Shown here piece by piece: positions 59,073-61,267 of a stretch of DNA of 64,000 nt. The first letter of the stretch is position 1. Each line of letters starts with the position of its first letter. A model generated the notes under the pieces. The model was given only the letters and a program-made list of their open reading frames with translations. It was not told where the DNA came from and searched no databases. The DNA comes from Oscillospiraceae bacterium. Its GTDB lineage: Bacteria > Bacillota > Clostridia > Oscillospirales > CAG-272. A program made the position numbers and the translations under genes. Location: assembly GCA_015064385.1 (NCBI GenBank), contig SVSI01000011.1:1-64000 (forward strand), read 5' to 3'.

Positions 59073-60011
59073 ATGGCAAAAATTATCGTGGTTGGAAGTC
59101 TCAACGTTGATATTACCGCGTACGCAAGTCGTTTTGCGCGCGACGGAGAGACTGTTAAGGGAGACGATATAAAGTTCGGTCCGGGAGGAAAGGGCGGAAA
59201 TCAGGCAAGCGCTGCGGCAAGAGCAGGCGGAGAGGTCTGTATGATCTCGCGTATCGGCAGAGATGTTCTTTCGGGCGTTATTACTGATCATTATAATAAG
59301 GAGGGAATCTCCGATAAATATCTTTCGCGCAGCGACAGTTTGCCTACGGGAAGTGCGGTTATTGAGGTGAGCGCCGAGAACGGTCAGAATAAGATAGTCG
59401 TTATTGCGGGCGCAAACTCCGAGCTTTCCGCGGAGCACGTCAGGGAAGCGCAGGAAGAGTTTAAGGATTGCGACGTTTTCCTCACGCAGCTCGAAACGGG
59501 ACTTGATCCGATATACGAAGGTATAAATCTTGCCAAAAAATACCAAAAAACGGTAATTCTCAATCCTGCGCCGCTCCAGAAATTACCAAATGATATACTT
59601 ATGAACGTAGATTATTTCACGCCGAACGAGACTGAAGCTGAGTTTTATTCGGGTGTCAAGATCGAAAACGAAGAGGATGCCTCAAGGGCGGCAAAAGAGA
59701 TAATCAAGCTTGGCGTTAAGAACGTAGTTATAACGCTTGGTAAAAGGGGAGTATATTTCTCAAACGGAAAAGAAAGCTTTTCGGTTGCAACCAAGCTGCT
59801 TAAGGCGGTGGATACCACGGGTGCAGGCGACGCCTTTAACGGCGGACTTGCAGTAGCGCTCGGTGAAGGAATGGATATAAAGGACGCCCTCAAATTTGCC
59901 AACTGCGCCGGATCGCTGTCAGTGACGAGATACGGTGCGGCAACCTCGGGCGCGTACAGATCTGAAATAAAGGAAATGATGAAGGATTTTTACGGAGTAG
60001 AGATAAACTGA
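59073..60011 (+). CDS. rbsK: Ribokinase
   Basis: 312-residue PfkB-family sugar kinase: VVGSLNVDITAYASRFARDGETV, FGPGGKGGNQASAAARAGG, NPAPLQKLP, FTPNETEAEFYSG and DTTGAGDAFNGGLAVAL with the catalytic Asp. Phosphorylates ribose for the pentose phosphate pathway. The leader has AAAGGGA, then a hairpin, then 12 bases to ATG (see findings). It stands alone with its own promoter and terminator; no ribose transporter is next to it. Confidence 0.94.
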   Translation: MAKIIVVGSLNVDITAYASRFARDGETVKGDDIKFGPGGKGGNQASAAARAGGEVCMISRIGRDVLSGVITDHYNKEGISDKYLSRSDSLPTGSAVIEVSAENGQNKIVVIAGANSELSAEHVREAQEEFKDCDVFLTQLETGLDPIYEGINLAKKYQKTVILNPAPLQKLPNDILMNVDYFTPNETEAEFYSGVKIENEEDASRAAKEIIKLGVKNVVITLGKRGVYFSNGKESFSVATKLLKAVDTTGAGDAFNGGLAVALGEGMDIKDALKFANCAGSLSVTRYGAATSGAYRSEIKEMMKDFYGVEIN

Positions 60012-60024
60012 AAATAAAATATTT

Positions 60025-60061
60025 AACCGCAGACAGATTTGTGTCTGCGGTTTGTTTTTTT
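60025..60061 (+). terminator. Terminator after rbsK
   Basis: AACCGCAGACA with TGTCTGCGGTT, then TGTTTTTT. Confidence 0.92.
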
Positions 60062-60110
60062 AATAAAAGTGGAATTTTGTTATATCGGAAATCGTGCACG
60101 GAAAAAGTAC

Positions 60111-60126
60111 ACACAATATATTGTGT
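60111..60126. promoter_or_regulatory. Perfect 16-bp palindrome matching the NrdR-box pattern
   Basis: ACACAATATATTGTGT, a perfect palindrome fitting the NrdR consensus acaCwAtATaTwGtgt. NrdR represses ribonucleotide reductase genes according to ATP/dATP. No nrd gene or second box at the usual ~31-base spacing is seen. CGTGCACG (60093-60100) is another small palindrome beside it. Confidence 0.55.
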
Positions 60127-60154
60127 TCGTGGCGAAACTAAAGTGAAATAAACG

Positions 60155-60286
60155 CTGTGGAAAACTCCTGTGGATAAAATAACGGTCAAAATAGTTTTCC
60201 ACAGGCGAAATCCACAGGGGAGAAGCATAAGGGATGCATGCCTGTGGATTTATGTTTAATTATACTAAATGATTATTTAGTATAAT
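60155..60286. other. DnaA-box cluster with adjacent AT-rich palindrome (oriC-like)
   Basis: Five sites with the DnaA core TCCACA/TGTGGA: TGTGGAAAA (60156-60164), TGTGGATAA (60169-60177, perfect consensus), TTTTCCACA (60195-60203), AAATCCACA (60208-60216), TGTGGATTT (60243-60251). CTGTGGAAAACT (60155) and AGTTTTCCACAG (60193) are a 12-bp inverted repeat; AAATCCACAGG (60208) and CCTGTGGATTT (60241) an 11-bp one. An AT-rich stretch follows with a perfect palindrome, ATTATACTAAAT (60259-60270) and ATTTAGTATAAT (60275-60286). No gene. Confidence 0.65.
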
Positions 60287-60395
60287 AGAGGGGAGTGAAA
60301 ACGGGGTAAAAAGCCCCTGAAGGTCCCCTGAGACCAAAAGTCCCCCGATAAGCCAAAAATACCGTAGGTTCAAATGACCTACGGTATTTTTATTA
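60287..60395 (+). ncRNA. Possible small structured RNA
   Basis: Downstream of TATAAT (60281-60286) lie nested stems: AGGGGA with TCCCCT and, inside, GGGG with CCCC, then a G/C-rich tail and a strong terminator (60355-60394). The -35 is weak, so promoter activity is uncertain. No start codon with an RBS leads an open frame here. Confidence 0.35.
60355..60394. terminator. Bidirectional terminator
   Basis: AAAAATACCGTAGGT, 7-base loop, ACCTACGGTATTTTT. Ends the minus-strand isomerase gene and any plus-strand transcript of the DnaA-box region. Confidence 0.92.
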
Positions 60396-60403
60396 AAAAG
60401 TAT

Positions 60404-61267
60404 TTAATTTTCGGAAATTATTTTTCTGAGATAGCTTGCAGCCGTTGCGATATCCTTTGCGGGATCCGATCCTACCTCACGCTCAATCGTAAGATAACCT
60501 TTGTATCCGATTTCTTCGTACGCTTTAAGCAGTCCTACAAAATCTACCTTTCCTGTACCGAGCGCAACCTCCATAAACGATCTTCCTTTGGGTGCGTTCG
60601 GATCCTCTACGATGTGCGGTACTACACGGTAGATTATCTCGGGATCTCTGTAAAACAAATGGACGCCGTCCTTTGCGTGCGTATGTACAATATAATCCTT
60701 TAATGTATAAACGCCTTTAACAGGATCTGAATTCGTTACCATAACGAGGTTTGCAGGATCGTAGTTTACTGCCACGCCTTTTGAGGACAGCGAGTCAAGA
60801 AAGCCCTTGAGGATCTCAGGCGTTTCGGGACCGGTCTCAACGGCGAAATGAGCGTCCATCGAGTCTGCAAATTCGGCGAGCTCGAAGCAAGCTTGCTGCA
60901 TTATTTTGTATCTCTCGTGCGACGGATCGCTCGGTACGACGCCTATATGAGTCGTAACTATATCAGTACCAAGCTCCTTGGCGGTCTCCATAATACGTTT
61001 GGAGGTTTCAATAAGCTCGGGGTTTATTTCGGGATTTCCGAAGCCGCGTCCGAGATCTCCGCATATCGCAGAAACTTTGAGTCCGTTGTCACCGAGGTGC
61101 TTTTTGACCTCTGAAATCTTCGCAGAGTTCATATTTTCGGGTGCGAGCTCACCTCTGGAGGCATACATCTGAACTCCGTTTGCACCGCATTCTGCGGCCT
61201 TTTTTATCGCTTCAGCGACCGTTGTTCTGAAAGAATCTGTAATGATTCCTATTGGGAAATTATACAT
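60404..61267 (-). CDS. Sugar phosphate isomerase/epimerase family protein (xylose isomerase-like TIM barrel)
   Basis: 287 residues: FPIGIITDSFRTTVAEAIKKAAECGANGVQMYA, VSAICGDLGRGFGNPE, TDIVTTHIGVVP, FAVETGPETPE with metal Glu, VNYDPANLVMV with metal Asp, YIVHTHAKDGVHLF with His, and GYLTIEREVG. Metal-dependent aldose-ketose isomerase or epimerase of unknown sugar (IolE/hydroxypyruvate-isomerase-like). RBS GAGAGGA. It follows the fol genes by 48 bases. Confidence 0.9.
   Translation of the reverse strand: MYNFPIGIITDSFRTTVAEAIKKAAECGANGVQMYASRGELAPENMNSAKISEVKKHLGDNGLKVSAICGDLGRGFGNPEINPELIETSKRIMETAKELGTDIVTTHIGVVPSDPSHERYKIMQQACFELAEFADSMDAHFAVETGPETPEILKGFLDSLSSKGVAVNYDPANLVMVTNSDPVKGVYTLKDYIVHTHAKDGVHLFYRDPEIIYRVVPHIVEDPNAPKGRSFMEVALGTGKVDFVGLLKAYEEIGYKGYLTIEREVGSDPAKDIATAASYLRKIISEN

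Follow-up and report, generated by a model that had tools for sequence, protein, structure and literature searches.

A probable dif site with a conserved array of DnaA boxes in an Oscillospiraceae genus

We examined an intergenic block in an Oscillospiraceae bacterium that had been described as an orphan oriC-like element, and find that it very probably combines a chromosome-dimer-resolution site with an array of predicted DnaA-binding sites. The elements reported in the initial annotation are there, but their reading as an origin was wrong. The dif itself is of a familiar kind, although its sequence type is new. The surprising part is the conserved DnaA-box array beside it, and we found no published report of DnaA boxes at dif in the open-licence literature.

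The DnaA-box array and its conservation

The window, that is, the whole stretch of 64,000 nucleotides analyzed here, is C2:1-64000 of a 66.6-kb contig in a 1.83-Mb draft genome of 26 contigs (G000). The five TGTGGA/TCCACA cores already described are present and span 60156-60248 (93 bp). The single perfect minus-strand box, the 12- and 11-bp inverted repeats, and the AT-rich palindrome with perfect 12-bp arms were likewise recovered, and the flanking genes converge on the block, as had been observed (Table 1). Hairpins on either side, one after each convergent gene, probably keep transcription out of the block.

Table 1. Features of the block and its neighbors (window coordinates)
Feature	Position	Strand	Remarks
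Ribokinase, left convergent neighbor	59073-60011	+	TIGR02152 above cut-off; syntenic in G001 and G003
Terminator-like hairpin of ribokinase gene	60025-60052	+	
16-bp perfect palindrome	60111-60126	.	ACACAATATATTGTGT; left of boxes; largely conserved in genus
Inverted repeat 1	60155-60204	.	12-bp perfect arms 60155-60166/60193-60204; contains boxes 1 and 3
DnaA box 1 (predicted)	60156-60164	-	TTTTCCACA; core unchanged across three species
DnaA box 2 (predicted)	60169-60177	-	TTATCCACA, perfect consensus; core unchanged across three species
DnaA box 3 (predicted)	60195-60203	+	TTTTCCACA; core unchanged across three species
DnaA box 4 (predicted)	60208-60216	+	AAATCCACA here; perfect TTATCCACA in G003
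Inverted repeat 2	60208-60251	.	11-bp perfect arms 60208-60218/60241-60251; contains boxes 4 and 5
DnaA box 5 (predicted)	60243-60251	-	AAATCCACA; core 60243-60248, 10 bp from dif
dif-like site (palindrome)	60259-60286	+	28 bp, 11-6-11 dyad; perfect 12-bp arms
dif-like site, left arm	60259-60269	+	ATTATACTAAA
dif-like site, 6-bp center	60270-60275	+	TGATTA
dif-like site, right arm	60276-60286	+	TTTAGTATAAT
KOPS/SRS-like motif copy adjoining dif	60289-60295	+	AGGGGAG here; consensus in relatives AGGGAAG; directed away from dif
Hairpin with A- and T-runs, 15-bp arms	60355-60391	.	Probable terminator of right (minus-strand) gene
Sugar-phosphate isomerase/epimerase-like protein, right convergent neighbor	60404-61267	-	Weak epimerase matches; syntenic

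The clustering of the boxes is not a product of chance, since the densest 94 bp in any of 200 dinucleotide-preserving shuffles of the window contained three cores (in 2 shuffles), compared with the five observed. Genome-wide, TTWTCCACA occurs at background level (47 matches versus 44 for a reversed-pattern control), and at least three matches within 100 bp are found in just two places of the G000 genome, this block and the gap between gyrB and gyrA.

The locus is syntenic in two members of the same genus, G001 and G003, in the order feoB, ribokinase, block, isomerase, and folC, and the right neighbor is 78% identical in both. Across the three species, 30 of 30 core positions in the five boxes are unchanged, against 32 of the 71 other bases of the block (p = 1e-8); to the left and right of the block, 56 of 135 and 40 of 96 bases, respectively, are invariant. 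Box spacings are 13-29-13-32, 13-29-13-31, and 13-28-13-31 in the three species, and the distance from the last box core to dif is a constant 10 bp. The alignment has at most two gaps in the 133 columns of the block and many outside it. Outer box bases that differ between species often still make a DnaA box (AAATCCACA versus TTATCCACA), and G001 carries a sixth box that touches dif. The whole locus is absent from the assembly of a fourth genus member, an 85% complete draft. We conclude from these comparisons that the boxes are real and unusual and that their cores and spacing are under selection in the three species; DnaA presumably binds all five predicted boxes.

Further sequences around the array were noted. 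The right part of the 16-bp palindrome, ATATTGTG, is kept across the genus. The motif AAAAGTCCCCCGAT (ATCGGGGGACTTT) lies near dif at 60334-60347 in G000, two copies lie near dif in G001 (L045, upstream), and a shorter form is found by dif in G005 (L031, upstream). G001 also has another cluster of four DnaA-box cores (L068:10107-10216; C28, ~90.1 kb), 52 kb from its dif.

The inverted repeats might also act as single-strand hairpins with DnaA boxes in their stems, loading helicase in the manner of the A site of an ABC primosome, so that synthesis is primed or restarted at the meeting point of forks. A hairpin with a DnaA box is sufficient for DnaB loading in vitro (PMC6127211). Both repeats fold much better than shuffles on either strand (z ~ -5 to -6, RNA parameters), and the outermost pair of the first repeat, C-G in G000 and G003, is T-A in G001, a compensatory change. 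However, stems of this kind arise from any oppositely oriented boxes. Moreover, pairing of the second repeat is 11/11 in G000 and G001 but 9/11 in G003, where the stem loses two pairs while the box improves to TTATCCACA, as expected of boxes read in duplex DNA. As the boxes stay when the stem weakens, we rank the hairpin reading low and consider it quite improbable. A structured RNA was rejected as well: an Rfam search of 58-62 kb gave zero matches, and the folding signal stems from the inverted boxes and the terminators.

A dif-type palindrome across the order

The palindrome had been likened to a DNA unwinding element. We searched 59 relatives with a pattern consisting of the palindrome and its right flank, using the reversed pattern as a control, and obtained matches in 27 genomes, at a single place in 26 of them, and none with the control. 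Neither the window (copies expected: 0) nor the rest of the G000 genome contains the palindrome again. The 27 aligned sites read ATTATACAAAA-tgcAAA-TTTTGTATAAT-TnAGGGAAG, that is, an 11-6-11 arrangement. The right flank lies partly inside the search pattern and its conservation is hence biased; at the bases outside the pattern, A occupies position 35 in 27 of 27 sites and position -1 in 25 of 27. The two arms co-vary: ACAAAA is matched by TTTTGT, ACTAAA by TTTAGT (this genus), and, elsewhere, ATAAAA by TTTTAT and GACAAAA by TTTTGTC. Such paired changes in both arms argue that the dyad itself is under selection. A single-copy, dyad-conserved 28-bp site common to the family and the order fits dif, not an unwinding element.

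We regard the palindrome as almost certainly dif. Like the dif sites of E. coli (XerCD) and B. subtilis (CodV/RipX), it comprises 28 bp with two 11-bp arms and a 6-bp center, is present in single copy, and lies at the terminus, where the skew switches and polar motifs converge. It differs from classical dif in that its arms are near-perfect mirror images, its sequence is unlike the B. subtilis type, AGGGAAG is conserved on one side, and, in this genus, DnaA boxes are attached. In E. coli dif, the XerD arm shares 8 of 11 positions with the right arm of the order-wide consensus. The G000 genome encodes two tyrosine recombinases (PF00589) with XerC/XerD/XerA-like scores, below the NCBIfam equivalog cut-offs for XerC and XerD. 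A pattern for the B. subtilis-type dif did not rise above control level in our search; dif analogues vary between lineages, and a match to that type is not required (PMC3025954, PMC5357621).

It is very unlikely that the palindrome is instead some other single-copy terminus element or an operator. Symmetric arms are unusual for XerC/XerD, which leaves some room for such an element; against it stand the 28 bp laid out as 11-6-11, the single copy, and the location at the point of motif convergence in 13 genomes. In addition, the adjoining genes vary between genera, so that the palindrome is not tied to a gene. We also considered a promoter or operator role, prompted by a plus-strand TATAAT and by ATTATA at the other end, and rejected it: the only promoter-like matches, all weak, fall on the minus strand at close to the chance level, and the neighbors differ between genera. 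One relative, G045, carries two dif-type sites (C8:58498-58531 and C49:5101-5134), one of which may belong to an integrated element, a second replicon, or contamination.

The boxes do not accompany this dif type in general. A box within 30 bp of dif, in the orientation seen here, was found in 3 of 246 family genomes, all of this genus; direct inspection of 24 dif-type sites outside the genus revealed no box cluster, and the surroundings of same-type dif sites in relatives (400 bp to 1.5 kb) held nothing beyond single scattered cores. With the array confined to three species of the genus and the dif found order-wide, the comparison indicates that the DnaA array is a genus-level addition to a dif of order-wide type.

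Such an addition could be what remains of a phage or plasmid that carried DnaA boxes and had inserted at dif. Mobile elements do use dif (PMC5357621), and a palindrome of this type occurs in 13 virus-collection contigs, several with tailed-phage genes. Yet the block has no similarity to the phage or plasmid records searched, the gap of ~400 bp contains no mobile gene, and selection maintains the box cores and spacing in three species, which together make a mobile remnant improbable. In the viral contigs themselves (L180-L192; for example, L187:133-160), the dif-type palindrome lacks the AGGG flank; several of them carry portal/terminase genes and one a rolling-circle replication protein, and they are possibly phages that use the host Xer.

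Chromosomal position and the polar motif AGGGAAG

As the initial annotation had remarked, neither dnaA nor dnaN is near the block. Both lie on contig C17 in a standard gene order, with rnpA, yidC, and jag in one direction and dnaA, dnaN, recF, gyrB, and gyrA in the other. The cumulative GC skew of C17 declines to the dnaA region, is lowest at ~95-100 kb, and is flat or rising thereafter, and the skew of C2 is mostly positive to ~60 kb and near zero or negative beyond it. The skew minimum near dnaA together with the pattern on C2 places the origin of G000 at dnaA and gives the block the character of a terminus. C2 extends only 6.3 kb to the right of dif and G000 is a draft, so its own terminus is located mainly through its relatives.

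In the complete genome of a relative, G043 (3,008,576 bp), dnaA lies at 664 bp and the palindrome site at 1,538,853; the skew is mostly positive before the site and consistently negative after it, flipping within ~2 kb. The cumulative-skew maximum falls within ~5 kb of the site in G035, G030, G031, G023, G006, G034, and G049 and 8 kb from it in G029, the overall range on long contigs being ~0.4-8 kb. G026 is an exception, with its skew maximum 20 kb away, yet its AGGGAAG polarity does switch at the site. The contig of G018 stops too early for its maximum to be placed.

The second line of evidence is this polar motif, which we sampled in 13 genomes. In six discovery genomes, AAGGGAA (145 copies toward the site, 17 away) and AGGGAAG (104 to 5) ranked with the 7-mers of strongest bias in the direction of the site. 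Since the orientation of the motif had been defined by the site, seven further, held-out genomes were tested, and 107 copies of AGGGAAG pointed toward the site and 9 away. The polarity reverses at the site or within a few kb of it in the 13 genomes, and the best-switch position touches or brackets the site in all seven held-out ones. Shine-Dalgarno-like control hexamers were biased toward the site by just 1.4-2.5:1. KOPS/SRS motifs behave likewise around dif (PMC5357621, PMC6549158); shared with them are the short, G-rich, leading-strand character, the direction to dif of >90% of copies, and the switch at dif. The motif here is AGGGAAG/AAGGGAA, not GGGNAGGG or GAGAAGGG, and by analogy it is a putative KOPS/SRS-like sequence that would guide FtsK/SpoIIIE. 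The copy fused to the dif flank (60289-60295; the same flank is found in 26 relatives) runs counter to the other polar motifs in always being directed away from dif.

Skew and polar motifs thus both mark a terminus at the block, and it is extremely unlikely that the block is the chromosome origin. What recalls oriC is the cluster of DnaA boxes adjoining AT-rich DNA, and the boxes are built of the same 9-mers as in the oriC of Clostridia. Unlike those origins, the block sits at the opposite end of the chromosome, away from the skew minimum and its diverging genes by dnaA. It has neither dnaA nor dnaN, its neighboring genes point towards each other, and its AT-rich element is a conserved recombination-type dyad, that is, dif. 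A four-box cluster in the gyrB-gyrA gap (C17:87801-87897; L006:2804-2894), ~5 kb from dnaA and near the skew minimum, may be part of the true origin region; clusters like it also lie after gyrB in G003 (L194) and G002 (L193). The suggestion of a true origin at the block consequently fell, because the skew switches elsewhere, while the conservation of the boxes in relatives favors the other reading that had been offered, a DnaA site.

Possible roles of DnaA at dif

In the mechanism that we propose, a pair of Xer tyrosine recombinases would occupy the two near-identical 11-bp arms, with strand exchange in the 6-bp center, once an FtsK/SpoIIIE-type DNA pump had been led to dif from both chromosome arms by AGGGAAG. 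The convergent genes would leave a transcription-free gap adjoining dif, where DnaA would bind the five boxes (six in one relative), and the fixed box spacing would yield a compact, defined DnaA nucleoprotein complex at the point of the chromosome that is replicated last. Xer and FtsK, like DnaA, are presumed to act at the block. The DnaA complex could credibly be an accessory or docking complex acting with dif or the terminus, and could just as credibly be a regulatory sink or recharging site of the datA, DARS, or DnaA-box-cluster kind that is duplicated only at the end of replication; some other role is unlikely. The fixed distance to dif favors joint action with dif or with a complex meeting there. 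A DnaA complex on a dif-fused array might also couple the last replication step, whether fork meeting or dimer resolution, to the next initiation, although we hold this to be doubtful.

The array may be a regulatory site that titrates, inactivates, or recharges DnaA, its position beside dif being incidental. Because of its terminus position, such a site would double only at the end of replication. Like the DnaA-box clusters of B. subtilis and datA, DARS1, and DARS2 of E. coli, the array has several boxes with a conserved arrangement in a gap away from oriC; the five are strong or near-consensus, fixed in spacing, and far from genes that a promoter-bound DnaA could regulate. In B. subtilis, deletion of six non-origin clusters causes early initiation, which a single cluster, placed at various positions, partly reverses, and the action of datA and DARS in E. 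coli depends on chromosomal position (PMC5295017). What such a reading leaves aside is that, unlike in those systems, the array lies directly beside dif with a constant 10-bp gap in all three species, and that the only dif-adjacent boxes in our adjacency scan belong to this genus. In E. coli, DARS and datA rely on IHF or Fis sites.

It is also possible, if less readily assumed, that the array serves the recombination site as an accessory sequence through which DnaA shapes or times Xer recombination. In this respect the block resembles the Xer sites cer and psi of plasmids, with predicted protein-binding sites over ~100 bp that abut one arm only, 10 bp from the core in three species. The plasmid site cer uses ~180 bp of accessory DNA bound by PepA and ArgR (PMC5357621). 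The site here is instead chromosomal, and DnaA boxes take the place of ArgR/PepA/ArcA sites. Same-type dif sites in relatives, with their surroundings almost free of boxes, speak against an accessory function. Chromosomal dif normally needs only FtsK rather than an accessory sequence, and we know of no role of DnaA in Xer recombination.

If DnaA binds beside dif as predicted, a site at the extreme end of the chromosome would be reserved for the initiator and maintained by selection, and through it one could study directly how cells might sense that one round of replication has ended before they start another. The dif sequence and the AGGGAAG motif, for their part, allow the terminus to be located in draft assemblies from a large group of uncultured gut Clostridia.
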